From the NCBI RefSeq assembly GCF_030064065.1, contig NZ_CP125946.1, positions 1,116,001 through 1,180,000 of the forward strand: a stretch of DNA of 64,000 nt, written 5' to 3'. Below the pieces are notes generated by a model. The model made no database searches. It was not told where the DNA came from and was given only the letters and a program-made list of their open reading frames with translations. Position numbers and translations under genes: made by a program. The DNA comes from Rothia sp. SD9660Na. Lineage in GTDB: Bacteria > Actinomycetota > Actinomycetes > Actinomycetales > Micrococcaceae. Positions 19,417 through 38,741 of the stretch are shown piece by piece. The first letter of the stretch is position 1. The number at the start of each line of letters is the position of its first letter.

Positions 19417-20399
19417 TGTGCGGACGCTACGCCCTTGAACTAGCCCAGGAACACCCCCAGTACATGGCTGGGGTCGAATTCGCCGACCCCATTACCAACT
19501 ACAACGTGGCACCCACCAGCACGGTCCCCATCCTGGTTGATCGGCTAGCGGCACCCACCGAGCAGGTCACAGGTGCGGACGCACCAGCCCGCGCGGGTGC
19601 GTCCGCCCACTCTGACGGCGGGCAGGGGAACTCCCCGGTTTTCACCCGAGAATTGCACTCGGCCCGCTGGGGCCTGCTGCCGGGCTGGGCGAAGGACCCC
19701 GCCTTCTCATCGCGGGCCTTCAACGCCCGCAGTGAGACGATCTTTGAAAAGCCCACCTTCCGCGAAGCCGCTGTTTCGGGGCACTGCGCTGTGCCCGTGA
19801 GCGGCTACTACGAATGGAAAACCGAAACTACCGCTGCGGGTAAACAGGTCAAGACTCCCTACTTTGTGCACCGCCCCGATGGTCGCCCCATCTACTTCGC
19901 TGGCTTGTACGAGTGGTGGAAGATTCCCGCAGAATTCGCCGGGCCAGATGGGTCTTTCGCGGGCAACCAGGGGGAGTGGCTGCTCTCCTGCTCGATCGTG
20001 ACCATGGATTCGCCCGGCAACGGCGAGTTCGAACCCGGAATCATGGCTGACCTGGGCGGCGACCCCGGCTACACAAATGAGATTGAACGGCAACTGGGCC
20101 AGCTACACAACCGCCTGCCCATACCTCTTCACGTGGCAAGTGATACTGAAATAAACGAGTCAGATAGCCTCACCACCTGGCTGCGGTCCGGCCGCCCAGC
20201 CGGTTCCACTAAACCCAACACCGAGCAGAAACGGGCCTACCGCACCCAGGCGCAGGCGTCCTTGCAACTCATCCGCGAGCAGGCCTTCGCTGAAACCGCA
20301 GGCTGGGCCCTGCGCGAGGTGAGTAAGGACGTCGGCAACGTACGCAACAACGCCCCCTACCTGCTGGAGCCGGTCGAAGATTTGCTCAGTGGGTTGTGA
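19416..20399 (+). CDS. SRAP (HMCES/YedK) abasic-site shielding protein
   Basis: A 327-residue protein. It starts at GTG 19416 giving MCGRYALELA: the second residue Cys becomes the catalytic N-terminus that forms a thiazolidine link with abasic sites in single-stranded DNA. Further SRAP motifs: NYNVAPTSTVP (about 28-38), ARWGLLPGWAKD (about 82-93), FNARSETIFEKPTFR (about 100-114), RCxxP-type HCAVPVSGYYEW (about 121-132). An unusual Ala/Gly-rich linker at about residues 50-72 is encoded by a GC-rich inverted repeat (19575-19606). It protects replication forks at abasic sites. Confidence 0.88.
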   Translation: MCGRYALELAQEHPQYMAGVEFADPITNYNVAPTSTVPILVDRLAAPTEQVTGADAPARAGASAHSDGGQGNSPVFTRELHSARWGLLPGWAKDPAFSSRAFNARSETIFEKPTFREAAVSGHCAVPVSGYYEWKTETTAAGKQVKTPYFVHRPDGRPIYFAGLYEWWKIPAEFAGPDGSFAGNQGEWLLSCSIVTMDSPGNGEFEPGIMADLGGDPGYTNEIERQLGQLHNRLPIPLHVASDTEINESDSLTTWLRSGRPAGSTKPNTEQKRAYRTQAQASLQLIREQAFAETAGWALREVSKDVGNVRNNAPYLLEPVEDLLSGL

Positions 20400-20439
20400 A
20401 AAGCCTGCTTCACCTAGAGCTTCTAGATTCGAAACAGCC

Positions 20440-20475
20440 GAGCCCCACCCCCGCTGCTGGTGAGGGGTAGGGCTC
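20440..20475. terminator. Bidirectional terminator between convergent genes
   Basis: GAGCCCcACCCC pairs with GGGGTaGGGCTC (one mismatch) around a 12-base loop. It serves the SRAP gene from the left and the GNAT gene at 20501 from the right. Confidence 0.7.
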
Positions 20476-20500
20476 AACTGTTTACTAGTGTACCGCTTGT

Positions 20501-32634: not shown

Positions 32635-33183
32635 ATGGTAGAAATTCCCGACTACACCACCGACGATTTTGAGCTGCCGGGGGTTCCGGACGCCTTCCAG
32701 CGGCTCTGGACGCCCCACCGCCGCGCCTACGTAAAGGGCGGGCAAAAGGACTACACCGAAAACACCTGCCCCTTCTGCGAAGCCCCCACCCACGATGATG
32801 CCGAGTCGCTCATCGTGCACCGTGGTGAGCACGCCTACGTCATTCTCAACCTCTACCCCTACAACCCCGGGCACCTGCTGGTCTGCCCCTACCGGCACAT
32901 CCCCAACTACGACGACGCAACACTCGAAGAAACCGCCGAAATTGCTGCCCTCACCCAGAAAGCCATGGGAATTCTGCGGGAGGTGAGCCGCGCAGCCGGC
33001 TTCAACATCGGCATGAACCAGGGCAAGGTCGGCGGGGCAGGGGTCGCCGCCCACCTGCACCAGCACATTGTGCCCCGCTGGAGCGGTGACACGAACTTCC
33101 TGCCCATCGTCGCCGGCACCAAGACGGTCACGCAGACCCTGGACGAGATCCGAGACCTGCTCAGCACTGCCTGGGATAGCTAG
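32635..33183 (+). CDS. HIT-family hydrolase/phosphorylase
   Basis: A 182-residue protein with the histidine triad HLHQHIVPRW (about residues 140-149), NLYPYNPGHLLVCPYRHI (about 73-90) and a CPFC pair at about 45-48. This actinobacterial group includes diadenosine tetraphosphate phosphorylases. A TAAACT -10-like hexamer lies just before the start, GAGGGG may be the ribosome site. In related genomes it follows thrS. The covarying stem-loop element begins four bases after its stop. Confidence 0.9.
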   Translation: MVEIPDYTTDDFELPGVPDAFQRLWTPHRRAYVKGGQKDYTENTCPFCEAPTHDDAESLIVHRGEHAYVILNLYPYNPGHLLVCPYRHIPNYDDATLEETAEIAALTQKAMGILREVSRAAGFNIGMNQGKVGGAGVAAHLHQHIVPRWSGDTNFLPIVAGTKTVTQTLDEIRDLLSTAWDS

Positions 33184-33187
33184 GGGA

Positions 33188-33297
33188 GGCAGCAGGCAAG
33201 CCAACTAAGCCCGCTGGCTCGGGGCTGGCGTGAATGATATCGAGCGCCCCAGCGCGAGATATCAGAGGGTCGGCGGGCGTTTGGCTTGCCTGCTGCC
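33188..33297. repeat. Covarying stem-loop element, copy 1
   Basis: Outer arms of 17 perfect base pairs: GGCAGCAGGCAAGCCAA (33188-33204) and its complement (33281-33297). Inside, GCCCGC (33209-33214) pairs with GCGGGC (33273-33278), and an inner hairpin is closed by GATATC (33236-33241 with 33258-33263). Core A (33213-33235, 23 bases, begins GCTGGCTCGGGGCTGG) and core B (AGAGGGTCGGC, 33264-33274) are identical in copy 2 at 37955-38062, whose stems differ but still pair. Confidence 0.75.
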
Positions 33298-33314
33298 TTA
33301 TATCGACTATCTTC

Positions 33315-34304
33315 CTAGAACAGCAATTCCTGCACGGACGCCGGGGGAGTGAGTTCCCCGTGCTGGCGGCAGGCCCTGTTGGAGAGCTCTGCGGTGTTGA
33401 TGAGGAAGGTCTGGTCGGGGTCGCCGAAGTGGGCGGTGAGAAATTTGCCGGTTCCACCGGTGATGTAGAAGCCGTGGGTGCCTTCGGTGAGGGTGGGGTA
33501 GCCGGTGAGGGGCTCGGGGTTTTCTGCCCGTAAGGACGCGTAGGCTCGGCTCATCGCGACGGATGGCACCCAGCGGTCTGCGGTGATATCGAAACCGTCG
33601 ATGGTGTCTTGTGCGTCTTCGAGCGCCCAGGTGGCGTTTTCTACAGCCATGTAGTGTTCAGATTTGAGGCGTTCGGTGCTGGCGGGGTCGACCCAGGCCT
33701 TATATTTGGTAGAGGCCCGTTTGAACTGGGTGAGGTTGGCCTCGTGCGAGACCAGGTCTTCGAGCTGGCGCACGATGATGCCGGTGTCTGCTCGGGCTAC
33801 GAAGGTGGCTGCGGCAACAGCTTGATCGTCCAGACGGCGGGGGTTGGAGTGCAGGGACGCGGTACCGACCTTAGATGTGCTATCGGGAAAAGTGGCAATG
33901 TAGAGGTAGTGTTCAAGGTTGACATAGGCCAGAGCTGCCTCGTTCATGCGGGAGCCCAAGTGAATGCGGTGAATAGGTGCGAATTCGTCGCGGGCCAAGC
34001 AGGAGTCGCACTGCTTGCCCTTGGTGATGATGGTGTGGTTGGGGCAGGGTTCTAGATGAAAGCCGACACTATCGAGGTTGGCCCGTGAGTAGCCGCTGCA
34101 GTAGGTGCCGCCACCGCGGACGTCCGCCGGGAGGGCAGTAAATCCGAGGAAGCTACCCGGGGTAACGGCGATAGTTTCAATCTCACCGCTAGGTTGACCA
34201 TCAAGAAGAGGCTCAACTTTAAGATAGGGGGCCCTGTCGCGCCAAGTGATGTCACGCCAGATAAATTCGAGGAAGGGTACAAGCTGGTTCATGGAAGTAG
34301 TCAT
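33315..34304 (-). CDS. DUF2797-domain protein
   Basis: A 329-residue protein. A zinc-like Cys set appears at CSGYS-type TYCSGY (about residues 67-72), EPCPNHTIITKGKQCDSCLA (about 84-103), followed by IHLGSRMNEAALAYVNLEHYLYIATF in segments (113-138) and a STSKVGTAS segment (about 141-149). This resembles the GIY-YIG-like part of DUF2797 proteins, whose function is unknown. It is divergent from murT. It carries one of the GCGGACGTCCGC words, encoding ADVR. Confidence 0.75.
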   Translation of the reverse strand: MTTSMNQLVPFLEFIWRDITWRDRAPYLKVEPLLDGQPSGEIETIAVTPGSFLGFTALPADVRGGGTYCSGYSRANLDSVGFHLEPCPNHTIITKGKQCDSCLARDEFAPIHRIHLGSRMNEAALAYVNLEHYLYIATFPDSTSKVGTASLHSNPRRLDDQAVAAATFVARADTGIIVRQLEDLVSHEANLTQFKRASTKYKAWVDPASTERLKSEHYMAVENATWALEDAQDTIDGFDITADRWVPSVAMSRAYASLRAENPEPLTGYPTLTEGTHGFYITGGTGKFLTAHFGDPDQTFLINTAELSNRACRQHGELTPPASVQELLF

Positions 34305-34332
34305 TACAGGTTCGAAGCATACACAAACCCGG

Positions 34333-34338
34333 TAAGAT
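34333..34338 (+). promoter_or_regulatory. -10 element of murT, probable leaderless start
   Basis: TAAGAT ends seven bases before ATG 34346 and no ribosome site is present. TTCGAA (34311-34316) stands at about the -35 place. The murT-gatD mRNA probably begins at the start codon. Confidence 0.5.
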
Positions 34339-34345
34339 AGTCACC

Positions 34346-35644
34346 ATGTCACGACCTGTTGTTCGCCTTGTTGGCCAAGGCATTCGTTATGCGACCAAGT
34401 TGCGCGGGGGCGGCTCTGCCTTCCCGGGCTTGGTCATGGAGAAGTTGCACCCGAATTTTGTGGCGGAGGAGCTGGCTAAGCTGCCGCGTGGTGTCGTTGT
34501 TGTTTCGGGTACGAACGGTAAGACGACCACCACTAAGATGGTGGTGCAGCTGCTGGAAGCCCAGGGCCTGAAGGTCTTTACCAACCGCACCGGGTCGAAC
34601 TTCGTGCGGGGTGTGGCTGCTGCTCTGCTGGGTGATATGAACCTGGCTGGCAAGCTGGATGCAGACATCGCTGTGCTTGAGCTGGATGAAGCCCACGCCG
34701 TTCATTTTGTGCGTAAGGTCAAGCCTAACTATGCGCTCCTGCTCAACGTCTTGCGTGATCAGCTGGATCGTTTCGGTGAGATTGACACAACCCGCCGTAT
34801 GCTGGCTACTGTCGCCGGTGCAACCACGGGCACAGTCGTGCTCAACCGCGAGGACCCGCGCATTCGCTCTTTGGCTCAAAATATTCAGCCTGGCACTCAG
34901 GTCAGCTATTTTGGTCTATCCGAGAAGCTGCGTGCCCTCTTCCCCTCCGACGACGATTTGCGCACCAGCCCCGAGGGGGCCGAGCGCGCGGACGCCGGTC
35001 TTCTGGCACCAGAGCTGCCGGCGGCGTCCGTCCTGCTCAAGGACTTCAAGGGAACCGCCGCCACCTTTGATGTTGCAGGCAAGGAGCTGGCGGGCACCAT
35101 TAACCTCTACGGTGTCTACAACATCTTTAACGCTGCGGCAGCAATGGCCCTGACTCGCGAGGTTATGGGAGATGCTCTCAACGAGACTAAACTTCTGGCT
35201 GAACTTGAGCATATTGCCCCGGCTTTTGGCCGCGGTGAAACCCTCAACGTTAACGGCCAGACCCTGCAGCTACTTCTGGTGAAGAACCCCAGCGGGTTCC
35301 GCCTGTCGCTGGCGTCCGCCGATGCCAAGGACTACGCCACCATGATCACCATCAACGACGCCTACGCCGACGGCCGCGACGTTTCCTGGCTCTGGGACGT
35401 CGACTTCCACTCCCTAACCCAGGGCGGCGTCACCATGGTATCGGGCGTGCGCGCCTACGACATGGCCCTGCGCCTGCAGCACGACGATGTTTATGTAGAA
35501 AACATCAACGAGGACCTCGAAGAAGCCCTGGCCACCTTTATTGCCAAGTCAGAGGGTCGCCCCATGCGCATCTTCTGCACCTACACCGCAATGCTGGCCA
35601 TCCGTAAGGAACTGGCAAAAATCACCGATGTGGAGGAAATCTAA
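34346..35644 (+). CDS. murT: MurT, lipid II isoglutaminyl synthase subunit
   Basis: A 432-residue Mur-ligase-like protein. ATP site VVVSGTNGKTTTTKMVVQLL (about residues 50-69), ELDEAHAVHFVRKVKPNY (about 112-129), LRDQLDRFGEIDTT (about 135-148) and GVYNIFNAAAAMAL (about 253-266), then the DUF1727 C-terminal domain (LVKNPSGFRLSLAS, about 310-323). With GatD it amidates the D-Glu of lipid II at the inner membrane. The four-Cys zinc ribbon seen in Staphylococcus aureus MurT is absent in the middle segment (residues 180-250). Start/stop overlap with gatD. Confidence 0.92.
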   Translation: MSRPVVRLVGQGIRYATKLRGGGSAFPGLVMEKLHPNFVAEELAKLPRGVVVVSGTNGKTTTTKMVVQLLEAQGLKVFTNRTGSNFVRGVAAALLGDMNLAGKLDADIAVLELDEAHAVHFVRKVKPNYALLLNVLRDQLDRFGEIDTTRRMLATVAGATTGTVVLNREDPRIRSLAQNIQPGTQVSYFGLSEKLRALFPSDDDLRTSPEGAERADAGLLAPELPAASVLLKDFKGTAATFDVAGKELAGTINLYGVYNIFNAAAAMALTREVMGDALNETKLLAELEHIAPAFGRGETLNVNGQTLQLLLVKNPSGFRLSLASADAKDYATMITINDAYADGRDVSWLWDVDFHSLTQGGVTMVSGVRAYDMALRLQHDDVYVENINEDLEEALATFIAKSEGRPMRIFCTYTAMLAIRKELAKITDVEEI

Positions 35645-36423
35645 TGAGCGATTTTGAGAACGCACCGGTCGAAGCGGGCGAGCAGATTATCACCCAGACC
35701 GGCAACAACAAGAGCCTGAAAATTGTGCAGCTCTACCCCAAAGACATGAACATCTACGGGGACTGGGGCAACACCCTGTCGCTCTCCCGCCGGGCCCAGG
35801 CCCACGGTTTCACCACCGAAATCGTTGACTACAACCCCGGTGATGAATTCCCGCTCGATGGCGATATCTTTGTGGGTGGCGGTGGCCAGGATTCAGGCCA
35901 GTCCGTCATCCAAGATGACCTACTGGCTAACGCTGAAACCCTGCGCATGCTGGCAGAAGACGGCACCCCCATGCTGGTCATCTGCGGTCTTTACCAGCTC
36001 TTCGGTAGAGAGTTCAAAACCGTAGGCGGCGTCACTCTCAACGGTATTCGCGTCTTTGACGCTAAAACCGTCGGCGGCGAAGAACGCCTGATCGGAAACA
36101 TCGTTGAGGAATCTGAAGAGTTCGGCACCATCATCGGGTTCGAAAACCACTCGGGGCTCACCTATCTCTCCGGCGACACCAAGCCCCTGGCCACCGTCAC
36201 CAAGGGCGAGGGCAACAACAAGGAAGATTCCGGCGAGGGCGCCCGCGTCCACAACGTCATTGGAACCTACCTGCACGGCTCCCTGCTACCCAAGAACCCG
36301 GCCATCTCGGACTTCCTCATCAAGCAGGCTGCTATCAAGAAGTACGGTGAGTTCACCCCCGTCGTCATCGACGACACCCTCGTGGAAAAGGCGCGCGCCT
36401 CAGCGTCCGCCCGTCCACGCTAG
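35644..36423 (+). CDS. gatD: GatD, glutamine amidotransferase subunit
   Basis: A 259-residue class I amidotransferase that supplies ammonia to MurT. The nucleophile is in [15 protein letters not shown] (about residues 112-126, Cys116), the catalytic His in [14 protein letters not shown] (about 203-216). [20 protein letters not shown] (about 25-44) is the typical N-terminus of GatD proteins. The gene overlaps murT by one base (TAATG). About 20 residues precede the usual start, so the N-terminus is slightly extended. Acts in peptidoglycan precursor amidation. Confidence 0.93.
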
Positions 36424-36484
36424 AATAGTACGAGGTACATCGCGCCCGCCCGCGTGCAGGCGCACCAGACGAATAAGGAGAATC

Positions 36485-37243
36485 ATGTCAGGTCACTCCA
36501 AATGGGCCACAACCAAGCATAAGAAGGCAGCCATTGACGCCAAGCGCGCCAAGGCCTTCGCTAAGTACATTAAGGCAATTGAAGTTGCAGCTCGCATGGG
36601 TGGCCCCGACCCGGCAGGTAACCCCGCCCTCGACCTTGCAGTATCAAAGGCCAAGAAGAACTCTGTTCCCAACGACAACGTTGAGCGCGCTATCAAGCGC
36701 GGCGCCGGTCTAACCGGTGAAGCCGTTGACTACACCGAAATCATGTACGAGGCCCGCGGCCCCCAGGGTACCGCCCTCTACATTGAATGTCTGACCGACA
36801 ACCGCAACCGTGCAGCCGCTGAGGTTCGCACCGCAGTTACCCGCAACGGTGGCACCATGGCGGACTCCGGATCTGTAGCCTTCCTCTTCGAGCGCAAGGG
36901 CGTTGCTGAAGTTGCTAAGACCGAGGGCCTGACTGAGGATGACGTCCTCATGGCAGTGCTCGACGCCGGCGCTGAGGAAGTCATCGACGAGGGTGAGATC
37001 TTCACCGTTGTCTCAGAGGCAACCGACCTGCCCGCTATCCGCAAGGCTCTGGAAGAGGCTGAGCTCGAGTACAACAACGACGACCCGGTCTTCCGCCCCA
37101 CTATGCAGGTAGACCTGGACGCCGAAGGTGCTAAGAAGTTCCTCAAGCTTGCCGACGCCATCGAAGAACTAGACGACGTACAGAACGTCTACTCCAACGC
37201 AGACATCAGCGAAGCCGTTATGGCCGAGCTCGAAGCTGAGTAA
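36485..37243 (+). CDS. yebC: YebC/PmpR-family regulator
   Basis: A 252-residue protein starting [20 protein letters not shown], the invariant start of YebC1-type proteins, with AAGGAG before the ATG. Later motifs: [17 protein letters not shown] (about residues 58-74), [20 protein letters not shown] (about 86-105), [20 protein letters not shown] (about 120-139). Long known as a transcription factor; newer work links the family to ribosomes stalled on proline stretches. It precedes ruvC as in many actinobacteria. The open frame upstream of 36485 is an out-of-frame shadow of gatD. Confidence 0.95.
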
Positions 37244-37265
37244 CCAGCAGGGAAAGGAGGAGCGC

Positions 37266-37937
37266 GTGGCCCCGGCTCACGGCACCTCACACCAGCGCCC
37301 GGAACCCGCACCGCGAGTTCCGGGCGCTGCCCGCATTCTGGGGGTCGACCCGGGTCTCACCAGGTGCGGTTTCGGTTTGGTCGATATGACGTCCAACCGC
37401 AAGGCCCATTTCGTGAACGTGGGGGTGGCTGGTACTGCCGCATCAGAGAGCCTGGACGCCCGCATCCTCAAGATTCTGCGCGCCGCCGAAGCCTGGCTCG
37501 ATACCTACCAGCCCGATGCCCTGGCCATTGAGCGAGTTTTTGCCCAGGAGCAGGTCAATACCGTTATCGGAACTGCCCATGCCTCAGGCGTGGTCATCGC
37601 AGCTGCCGCTGCACGCGGTGTGCCGGTACACTTTCACACCCCCTCAGAGGTTAAGGCGGCTGTGACGGGCTCCGGACGCGCCGATAAGGCCTCGGTGGGT
37701 CGCATGGTCACCCGCATTTTGGGGCTTGACACGATGCCCAAGCCTGCAGACGCGGCGGACGCCCTCGCTCTAGCTATCTGCCACGGTTGGCGCGGCGGTG
37801 GTATTGGCTCGGGCATTAACATGGCAGCCACTACCCAAACCCATCAGGGGTCAAACCCGGCGGCAGCACGGCGAACGTCCCAGCTCACCCCCGCCCAGCG
37901 GGCCTGGATGGAGGCAGAGGCAAGGGCACGAAGGTAG
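37266..37937 (+). CDS. ruvC: RuvC Holliday junction resolvase
   Basis: A 223-residue endonuclease from GTG 37266, AAAGGAGG upstream. Catalytic acidic residues sit in [17 protein letters not shown] (about residues 24-40), [16 protein letters not shown] (about 80-95), and [17 protein letters not shown] (about 156-172). The C-terminus has an extra basic tail rich in Ala/Gln/Arg. It cuts Holliday junctions together with RuvAB. The covarying element follows the stop, and ruvA has its own promoter, so ruvC and ruvAB are probably separate transcripts. Confidence 0.96.
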
Positions 37938-37954
37938 GGCGAGGGTCTTGGGTA

Positions 37955-38062
37955 GGCGGCGGACTCACAGCGAAGCTGCTGGCTCGGGGCTGGCGTGAAT
38001 CGCGTAACGAGCGTAGCGAGTCGCGCGAGAGGGTCGGCAGTGAGCGTGAGTCCGCTGCTTGC
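37955..38062. repeat. Covarying stem-loop element, copy 2
   Basis: Outer arms GCGGACTCAC (37959-37968) and GTGAGTCCGC (38046-38055); CTGC (37976-37979) pairs with GCAG (38037-38040); the inner hairpin is closed by CGCG (38001-38004) with the CGCGCG at 38022-38027. Core A (37978-38000) and core B (38028-38038) are identical to copy 1 at 33188-33297, while the stem sequences differ. It follows the ruvC stop by 17 bases. Confidence 0.72.
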
Positions 38063-38087
38063 CCGCAACATACAAGACACACGTTTC

Positions 38088-38123: not shown

Positions 38124-38741
38124 ATGATTAGCTCACTGACCGGTACCGTGACCCACCTGGGGTTGGAGACCGCTGTTATCGATGTAAACGGTTTTGGCAT
38201 GCTGGTGCACCTCAACGCCCGTACCGCCTCGCAGCTGCGCCTGGGGGAGAAGGCAACGGTTCTGACCACCATGATTGTGCGTGAGGACTCCATGACCCTC
38301 TACGGCTTTGCTGACCCTGCCGAGCGTGAGGTCTTTGACATGATGCTGTCGGTGTCGGGTATTGGTCCGCGCATTGCCCTAGCTGTGCTCGGCGTGCATA
38401 CCCCGGCCGAGGTTGAGCGCGCTGTGGCCACCGGTGACGATAAGGCCTTCACTAAAGTACCCGGTATCGGCCCCAAGGGGGCGCGCCGTATCGTCCTGGA
38501 GCTTGCTGGCAAGCTGATTTTGGCAGACGGCGCTACCGACCAGCTGCCGATTGACCAGGGCGTGAGCTGGAAGCCTCAGGTGCAGGACGCCCTGACCAGC
38601 CTGGGCTGGAACGAGCGCGATGCAGTCAGTGCCATCGAGTCCTTTATCGAACATTACCCGAAGGCCGAGACCATGGGTGTGGCTGAGGCCCTGCGTTCCG
38701 TGCTGGCCTCACTGGGTAACCAGAACACGGTAGGTCGATAG
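38124..38741 (+). CDS. ruvA: RuvA Holliday junction DNA-binding subunit
   Basis: A 205-residue protein. Domain I starts MISSLTGTVTHLGLETAVID and has the OB fold; domain II carries two helix-hairpin-helix units, VSGIGPRIALAVLG (about residues 76-89) and VPGIGPKGARRIVLELAGKL (about 112-131); domain III begins about residue 150 and binds RuvB (LTSLGWNERDAVSAIESFIE). It holds the four-way junction while RuvB pumps DNA. ruvB begins seven bases after the stop. Confidence 0.97.
   Translation: MISSLTGTVTHLGLETAVIDVNGFGMLVHLNARTASQLRLGEKATVLTTMIVREDSMTLYGFADPAEREVFDMMLSVSGIGPRIALAVLGVHTPAEVERAVATGDDKAFTKVPGIGPKGARRIVLELAGKLILADGATDQLPIDQGVSWKPQVQDALTSLGWNERDAVSAIESFIEHYPKAETMGVAEALRSVLASLGNQNTVGR

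Follow-up and report, generated by a model that had tools for sequence, protein, structure and literature searches.

REP and BIME elements are short 3'-intergenic hairpins that sometimes lie in head-to-head pairs and fold in a strand-specific manner, and the foot of the REP hairpin carries a conserved GTAG-type tetranucleotide. The MITE-like repeats of the ERIC, RUP and NEMIS type are described as small (<200 bp), non-coding, intergenic and dispersed, with hairpins in their RNA, and most such repeats are reported to have terminal repeats, 5'-TA termini, A+T-richness and target-site duplications (PMC2229807). Cozzuto et al. 2008 (PMC2267715) surveyed stem-loop repeat families in 40 genomes. Template switching is reported to homogenise the arms of inverted repeats and to invert their spacers (PMC8604942; PMC8794818); the loop inversions reported in rRNA are rare and a few bases long (PMC8794818). 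Here we describe an intergenic element of Rothia with two copies in the window, by which we mean the whole 64-kb stretch of DNA that was analysed.

Results and discussion

As Table 1 shows, each copy comprises a copy-specific outer stem (P1), an inner stem (P2), an asymmetric internal loop and a hairpin (P3). The two copies are identical over a 23-base core (33213-33235 and 37978-38000) and again over AGAGGGTCGGC (33264-33274 and 38028-38038), just as the first-pass annotation had reported, and the three pairs of arms that it described as differing in sequence yet pairing within each copy all do so; the pairing of the outer arms stood, but their length in copy 2 had been understated and is 19 bp. 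The copies follow stop codons closely, as had also been noted, with copy 1 starting 5 bases past that of a HIT-domain gene and copy 2 starting 13 bases past that of ruvC. The neighbouring genes (HIT; ruvC and ruvA) have no obvious common function. Exact matches to the core GGCTGGCRTGAAT occur at two places in the window, the two copies only, and the five matches with two mismatches are at chance level. With a few flanking bases included, the + strand gives folding z values of -7.6 (copy 1) and -5.5 (copy 2) against dinucleotide shuffles, none of 200 shuffles being as stable; the corresponding values for the - strand are -6.4 and -0.9. The - strand of copy 1 is also stable because its long P1 pairs on either strand.

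Table 1. Features of the two element copies and their neighbouring genes (positions in the window)
Feature	Position	Strand	Basis
Copy 1, P1 outer stem, 5' arm, copy-specific, 17 bp	33188..33204	+	sequence and fold
Copy 1, internal loop J1/2, 5' side, CTAA	33205..33208	+	sequence
Copy 1, P2 5' arm GCCCGCTGGCTC; inner part conserved, forms G.U pairs	33209..33220	+	fold, covariation
Copy 1, conserved 15-base 5' strand of asymmetric internal loop, GGGGCTGGCGTGAAT	33221..33235	+	core comparison
Copy 1, P3 hairpin, GATATC arms, cap GAGC....GCGA	33236..33263	+	fold
Copy 1, conserved AGA, internal loop 3' strand	33264..33266	+	alignment
Copy 1, P2 3' arm GGGTCGGCGGGC	33267..33278	+	fold
Copy 1, P1 outer stem, 3' arm	33281..33297	+	fold
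Copy 2, P1 outer stem, 5' arm, 19 bp	37950..37968	+	arm-length check
Copy 2, J1/2 AGCGAA; possible tandem G.A motif with GAGC at 38042-38045 (G.A pairing predicted)	37969..37974	+	
Copy 2, P2 5' arm GCTGCTGGCTC	37975..37985	+	fold
Copy 2, conserved 15-base loop strand	37986..38000	+	core comparison
Copy 2, P3 hairpin, CGCG arms	38001..38027	+	fold
Copy 2, conserved AGA	38028..38030	+	sequence
Copy 2, P2 3' arm GGGTCGGCAGT	38031..38041	+	sequence
Copy 2, P1 outer stem, 3' arm	38046..38064	+	arm-length check
HIT-domain gene upstream of copy 1	32635..33183	+	Pfam HIT 1.4e-15
Convergent gene downstream of copy 1, DUF2797-like	33315..34304	-	20.4 bits, below Pfam cut-off 25
ruvC upstream of copy 2	37266..37937	+	Pfam RuvC 8.2e-49
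ruvA downstream of copy 2, same strand	38124..38741	+	Pfam RuvA_N 2.3e-20

The first-pass annotation had allowed that only these two copies might exist; the family is instead dispersed. The own genome holds 24 blast matches and 51 model matches at E<=0.001, and 20 of the 35 Rothia genomes hold 807 model matches at the same threshold, with at most 108 candidates scored per genome. The distribution is patchy: a positive genome holds 1-88 copies. Across the own genome, the 15-base core is matched 50 times when two mismatches are allowed, against 7 for a reversed control. The element is G+C-rich; P3 is copy-specific, mostly with a GAGC..GCGA cap, the feet of P1 differ between copies, and the ends GCAGGCTCRC/GYGAGCCTGC are common to one subfamily rather than to the whole family. 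Some copies are arranged as head-to-head pairs, mosaic relatives have common ends and different interiors, a nested module in the P3 loop is present or absent at five orthologous sites, and one locus of the own genome (753854) carries a different subfamily from that at the same site in a relative (L066). Homologues with long stems of their own are found in another actinobacterial family, and a third such family has one probable copy. A broad pattern search in the former at up to three mismatches matched at least 102 of 149 genomes, the reversed control being similar in most, and only matches with 0-1 mismatch (genus g84, G769, G786, G760 and one in G844) were taken further; R2, built from 21 sequences, leaves out duplicates and seven matches without GGATGG.

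Rfam gave no match at the gathering threshold in the window, and a permissive Rfam scan covering 10 loci, with copies from Rothia and from elsewhere, gave none on an element. Around copy 1 a permissive scan gave only microRNA models, the best scoring 30.4 bits against a threshold of 100, and these were rejected as generic long-hairpin matches. Among the literature matches listed, judged by title and the start of the abstract, no paper describes the Rothia element. Rothia-sucC is an RNA motif of Rothia, and a literature search for it gave no paper. Judged against Rfam and literature descriptions, the element family is apparently undescribed. Its many intergenic copies with a common fold place it among dispersed structured intergenic repeats, and the earlier label "REP-like" holds in this broad sense only; REP/RAYT membership was rejected because the own genome is without a Y1 (RAYT-type) transposase (PF01797), which is present in 3 of the 35 genus genomes. 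No mobilising protein for the element was found. A plasmid or phage origin was set aside, as copy 1 has no blastn match in plasmid or phage records, and viral contigs hold no exact match to two core patterns.

The alignment and covariation test suggested at first pass gave very strong covariation. Alignment A1 (37 copies) is 92.7% paired, against 29-41% when slid; it omits seven cores excluded by eye for having no flanking motif, together with a further eight, of which two are short variants, five are expanded and one is degraded. Alignment A2, with 127 further copies drawn from 100 of 120 loci, is 95.2% paired against 22-44% when slid, and holds 775 double-change cells against 205 when shuffled and 71-134 when slid. 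Because P2 contains 320 G.U against 7 A.C pairs, one folded strand is favoured, with the G.U excess lying largely in one invariant column and in shared descent; one G.U column of P2 counts 117 of 124. Of the 15 columns in the loop strand, 12 are invariant in 37 copies with different stems, an invariance that is partly ascertained since most copies were first found by a core pattern. In each copy, comparison of the sequences shows one particular strand with a predicted fold of P1 (long and near-perfect), P2, an asymmetric loop (nearly invariant 15-base 5' strand, 3' AGA) and P3. Family size, covariation and strand-specific wobbles thus support the claim that a repeated palindromic unit keeps a conserved fold. 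Template switching without selection can partly explain the covariation of the outer stem, and less easily that of the inner P2.

The position of the copies was counted for 48 in the own genome (46 from the set of 51 at E<=0.001, plus two weaker matches), with gene calls from a home-made codon score. As many as 45 adjoin the 3' end of one gene or more, and 23 of these are flanked by convergent genes; 3 of the 48 lie between divergent genes. In many Rothia genomes, gene 3' ends carry copies by the dozen. The 22 copies between co-directional genes comprise 8 in sense and 14 in antisense, and the copies show no preferred orientation. By eye, the 5' arm of P1 is G-rich and the 3' arm C-rich. Of 53 copies, 14 have at least four T within the nine bases after P1, compared with 8 when bases farther out are scored; A-tracts beside P1 number 10, against 3 farther out. 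The T-tracts are only mildly enriched, and with so weak a signal the outer stem is a possible rather than a demonstrated case of the terminator class suggested earlier. For the suggested structured RNA, the random, often inverted orientation weakens the case for cis action on a neighbouring gene.

Of 131 orthologous pairs, 52 have the element inverted between the same flanks. The inverted interior spans ~70 bases, the inversion can be followed base by base at both loci of the window, and its frequency is not tied to the divergence of the pair. At sense co-directional loci with orthologues, the element is inverted in the orthologues at 4 of 5. The 131 pairs are what is left of 335 (197 in the same orientation, 138 inverted) once tandem or paired loci, one-flank-only, identical and duplicated cases are removed. 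In-place inversion of this kind fits template switching between the outer arms. Two-sided changes, counted in the 28 of these 131 pairs that lie inside A2, make up 48 of 76 changed base pairs in P1 and 12 of 35 in P2.

Surviving orthologous copies have 2.2% of the core changed against 8.5-10% of the flanks, in the same order in both subfamilies; these 131 pairs were admitted only where both members carried the core pattern, a bias towards a conserved core. A recount based on flanks only, with 226 comparisons of sites of similar length, 11 of them missed by the core search, gives 2.6% for the core and 13.8% for the P1 arm. Gene conversion between copies could also cause the slower change of the core. 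Across 354 orthologous-site comparisons, which are non-independent and over-represent the ruvC locus, 94 sites are shorter by >35 bases and 34 are longer. Many orthologous sites have thus apparently lost the element, which argues against strong selection on each copy. Among the sites listed without a full element, several keep P1 remnants and resemble deletions, others (ruvC in G273) keep none, and no target-site duplication was noticed. No simple duplication was seen at the E3 site in L193, and no clean insertion with a target-site duplication was found among the orthologous sites read.

Interpretation

From the structure and the family, which the comparisons show, we infer a function. Our preferred reading, held tentatively and at a little short of an even chance, is that the window copies are non-coding, non-autonomous dispersed hairpin elements, each an orientation-neutral 3'-end hairpin carrying a recognition core of the folded strand. 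P1 would be this hairpin and would serve the genes whose ends adjoin it, either as a bidirectional terminator or by protecting those ends, and the conserved P2/loop/P3 core would be a putative recognition site for a factor that reads it as a folded single strand, whether RNA or transient ssDNA, and that may have spread the element as well. Template switching from one P1 arm to the other would flip the interior and keep the arms complementary, so that P1 could drift freely in sequence while its pairing is kept.

The frequent loss of copies takes weight from the 3'-end hairpin explanation and adds it to another, in which the element is a selfish, folded-ssDNA mobile element without host benefit, its core being a putative transposase or recombinase binding site (REP/RAYT- or attC-like) and its 3'-end position reflecting tolerated insertions. 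The patchy copy numbers, the lack of a preferred orientation, the head-to-head pairs, the mosaic relatives, the nested P3-loop module and the different subfamilies at 753854 and in L066 all speak for such an origin. We nevertheless consider it unlikely, if a substantial prospect, given that the Y1 transposase is absent from the own genome and 32 of the 35 genus genomes, that plasmid, phage and viral records gave no match as described above, and that surviving cores change less than their flanks, which would be unexpected for a dead selfish copy.

The strand-specific G.U excess, the stop-proximal position and the very stable RNA folds could also come from a cis-acting structured RNA (3' UTR regulator, riboswitch-like element or ribonuclease site) acting in sense on the upstream gene. 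The predominance of antisense among co-directional copies, the inversion of orthologues at most sense loci and the disparate neighbours of the window copies make this improbable. Least credible is a functionless mutational by-product, in which template switching would keep quasi-palindromes perfect and flip them. In its favour are the mostly two-sided changes in P1, the spacer inversion expected to accompany template switching and the frequent loss of copies, but it leaves unexplained the invariance of a largely unpaired 15-base strand, the kept G.U wobbles, which template switching would correct, and the matching core in another family.

The element may also belong to an actinobacterial class of folded-strand hairpins, a generalisation that is possible but doubtful. 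Any long stem would serve in such a class, the apical core (GGGYCTGGC..GA - P3 - RGAWGG) would be kept across families, a putative dedicated reader would act on folded RNA or ssDNA, and orientation would be randomised by constant template-switch inversion. If true, this would be a natural system that uncouples the sequence of a stem from its pairing.

The element represents a seemingly unlisted structured-repeat family of up to 88 copies per genome, in which two causes of covariation can be separated in one object: mutational in the outer stem, and probably selective in the inner stem and loop. It is also a warning that covariation alone is no proof of an RNA. The frequent inversion of orthologous copies offers a natural test of how often template-switch inversion occurs in bacteria, and a factor bound by the core, if there is one, would act simultaneously at dozens of gene ends.

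Comparison with known systems

Like REP and BIME elements, the Rothia element is a 3'-intergenic hairpin that is sometimes arranged head-to-head and has a strand-specific fold; unlike them, it is longer, has P3 and the asymmetric loop, and resides in a genome without a Y1 transposase. It resembles bidirectional intrinsic terminators as a hairpin between convergent genes with, by eye, a G-rich 5' and a C-rich 3' arm, but differs in its large conserved interior and weak T-tracts. It shares with ERIC, RUP and NEMIS, as these are described, its small size, non-coding nature, dispersal between genes and hairpin formation, whereas its outer stem varies by copy, it is G+C-rich and no duplication was seen (PMC2229807). 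As in the families surveyed by Cozzuto et al. 2008 (PMC2267715), intergenic repeats have a common secondary structure. Finally, it resembles the reported template-switch hairpins (PMC8794818; PMC8604942) in having homogenised arms and an inverted loop or spacer, but in contrast to the rRNA loop inversions (PMC8794818), the Rothia interiors of ~70 bases are inverted in 52 of 131 pairs.

Architecture of the Element

Both copies in the window, and all three sets of arms that the first-pass annotation had described as differing in sequence while still pairing, were found as described. Each copy is built from an outer stem (P1), an inner stem (P2), the loop between them (J1/2) and an apical hairpin (P3), with a conserved 15-base loop strand, the core, facing AGA. 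Folding of the plus strand as RNA gives −76 kcal/mol (z = −7.6) for copy 1 and −67 kcal/mol (z = −5.5) for copy 2, and the minus strands have z scores of −6.4 and −0.9, respectively. The median P1 length is 16 pairs (n = 53 copies). Across the element family, GAGC..GCGA motifs in the P3 caps, and often in J1/2 too, resemble tandem sheared G.A pairs, which may be a structural signature of the family.

Coordinates of element features (copies 1 and 2 in window positions; G000:C4, contig of the own genome; L numbers, individual loci)
Feature	Position	Remarks
Copy 1 P1	33188-33204 with 33281-33297	17 bp; small internal loop between P1 and P2
Copy 1 P2	33209-33220 with 33267-33278	12 bp
Copy 1 15-base strand GGGGCTGGCGTGAAT	33221-33235	faces AGA at 33264-33266
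Copy 1 P3	33236-33263	
Copy 2 P1	37950-37968 with 38046-38064	19 bp; remaining plan as copy 1
Own copies with second repeat	G000:C4 289755, 525568, 1277981, 1605636, 2105205	L052, L040, L044, L033, L048
Third element	L276 about 1560-1755; L278; L279	

Distribution

Copy 1 as a BLAST query finds 24 places in the 2.39-Mb genome, where the core occurs 50 times at up to two mismatches, versus 7 for the reversed control. A covariance model (R1) was built from 37 aligned copies with a structure that we specified and on which pairs were counted; it marks 51 places in this genome at E ≤ 0.001 and 59 at E ≤ 1, the E-values of these model searches being rough. With one genome sampled per species, R1 yields at least 807 matches in 20 of 35 Rothia genomes, each positive genome having between 1 and 88 among the candidates scored, of which there were at most 108 per genome. 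In the family, 20 of 395 genomes are positive, every one from this genus, and the core pattern in named genomes returned at least 120 loci, all those listed being Rothia.

Under strict filters, R1 over 396 genomes of the order gave three positives beyond the genus, each with one weak match, from a single genus of another family; these matches fold to the plan seen in Rothia, with long P1 stems of their own. The core GCTGGCTGGGYCTGGCGGGA recurs in that genus and, within its family, in a few further genera (at 0–1 mismatch only), and the retrieved copies read GGGYCTGGCGGGA - P3 - GGATGG within copy-specific hairpins. A model made from 21 non-Rothia sequences alone (R2) recovers Rothia copies, with best values of 2e-5 in the 26 sources searched and 4.7e-4 in the whole genome, and over 394 genomes of the class it adds two genomes of that other family, together with a partial match from a third family that folds to the same plan. 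By a crude GC3 test of 24 non-Rothia loci, both neighbors were called at 13 (8 convergent, 5 co-directional and 0 divergent); an open frame overlaps one of the 24. At L339 (G786 C30 78029-78286), in a non-Rothia genome, three related cores lie in tandem, 119 bases apart.

Covariation and Strand Choice

The fold was tested by aligning 127 further copies to R1, an alignment that leans towards the model. Pair cells are paired in 95.2%, versus 22–44% with the partner slid, and 775 cells are changed on both sides, versus 205 shuffled and 71–134 slid. All four Watson-Crick types are represented at most P1 positions. P2 contains 320 G.U or U.G wobbles versus 7 A.C or C.A (47 versus 19 in P1; 8 versus 6 in P3), and its 95 other mismatches include 46 C.C at the outermost pair as aligned. 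The fold seems to be under selection in one strand, whether RNA or single-stranded DNA, since equal use of both strands would not give the G.U excess in P2. Part of this excess is due to shared descent; at a single P2 position, 117 of 124 copies have G.U.

Among 28 orthologous pairs within this alignment, 48 of 76 changed P1 pairs are altered on both sides, 8 are one-sided with pairing retained and 20 are unpaired in one or both copies; for P2 the corresponding counts are 12, 16 and 7 of 35. Excerpts from two papers (PMC8604942, PMC8794818) describe template switching between inverted repeats, which homogenizes the arms and inverts the spacer. The P1 changes show the pattern that this process yields, and P1 covariation alone is thus weak evidence for selection. 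Template switching explains neither the wobbles in P2 nor the loop strand.

Inversion, Constraint, and Loss

At the site of copy 1, 3′ of a HIT-domain gene, the own genome, G273, G160 and G301 carry the element forward; in G250 and G184 it is inverted within the same arms and has the same P3 (GATATC arms; GACATC in one G250 arm); it is internally deleted in G287, and G173 and G242 retain the first part only. At ruvC-ruvA, the site of copy 2, it is forward in the own genome, G287 and G184, inverted in G173, G301, G160 and, judged by match strands, G250, and absent in G273 and G132. Among the loci retrieved, 131 unambiguous orthologous pairs comprise 79 in the same orientation and 52 inverted, independent of flank identity (14 same versus 10 inverted at ≥95% identity). 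At least one inverted relative exists at 14 of 25 own loci with unambiguous orthologues, including 4 of the 5 sense co-directional sites.

When the core pattern is required in both members, orthologous pairs diverge by 2.2% in the 15-base strand, 6.2% in the P2 arm, 10.6% in P3 and 14.9% in the P1 arm, with 8.5–10% in the flanks, which are partly coding. The ranking is unchanged within each P1 class, with 1.7% in the core and 6.3% in the flanks for copies sharing a common P1 and 2.5% and 10.9%, respectively, for those with a unique P1, and a flank-only count of 226 comparisons of similar length gives 2.6% for the core, 13.8% for the P1 arm and 7.4% for P3. Of 354 flank-based orthologous-site comparisons, which are not independent, 94 are shorter by >35 bases and 34 longer. 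Surviving copies thus seem constrained, but loss is frequent; the 94 shortened cases disfavor strong selection acting on every copy. The slow change of the core could alternatively stem from gene conversion. Window positions about 20303-20495, probably a remnant of a lost element, hold a partial outer arm only, and the orthologous L222 5700-5810 has a full copy.

Modules and Paired Copies

Five own copies have an enlarged P3 with a second repeat, GATTCCGAGCGCGCGAGGAAAAT, in its loop; this repeat occurs at 13 places in the own genome at ≤3 mismatches, versus 0 for the control. At five orthologous loci, one genome carries this module in the P3 loop and another lacks it at the same point. A third element of ∼200 bases has outer P1/P2 ends in common with the element and a different, structured interior, and its orthologous site in a relative (L193) is empty. 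Such a mosaic pattern is consistent with copies exchanging parts, and possibly also with mobility.

At two of the five own loci with the second repeat (525505 and 1277918), the retrieved orthologues lack it, and own 753854 (L043) and L066 carry different subfamilies with different stems at the same intergenic site. Opposite-orientation pairs, 2 to about 150 bases apart, lie at own 124414-124636 (kept in other genomes), 749252-749561 and 1950857-1951230, and at L181, L187, L192 and L246. Partial tandem copies spaced ∼62 bases, the final one complete, occur at L183 1103-1340 and L175 3732-3873.

Placement and Proposed Role

With neighbors called by a home-made codon-score gene caller, 23 of 48 own copies lie between convergent genes, 3 between divergent genes and 22 between co-directional genes (8 sense, 14 antisense); therefore, 45 of the 48 adjoin a gene 3′ end, with no orientation preference. 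Downstream of P1, T-rich ends show only a mild enrichment (14 of 53 copies versus 8 farther out), and A-rich ends precede P1 in 10 versus 3. Because placement at gene ends is orientation-free and the outer stem orientation-neutral, P1 may serve transcripts from both sides. A factor would recognize the conserved core as presented by one folded strand. At 14 of 22 co-directional sites the core lies antisense to its neighbors, which makes a simple cis-acting element of the 3′ UTR less likely and leaves room for a folded single-stranded DNA or mobile role.

Relation to Known Elements

The element matches no Rfam family, copy 1 matches no plasmid or phage record, and the own genome has no Y1 transposase; among the open-licence papers listed for the element or its kin, going by titles and opening abstract lines, none describes it. 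An Actino-pnp RNA (RF01688; 48.9 bits, barely above threshold) lies at L272 354-422 (−), ∼1.1 kb from an element-related copy. We file the element as a new form of dispersed palindromic intergenic repeats.
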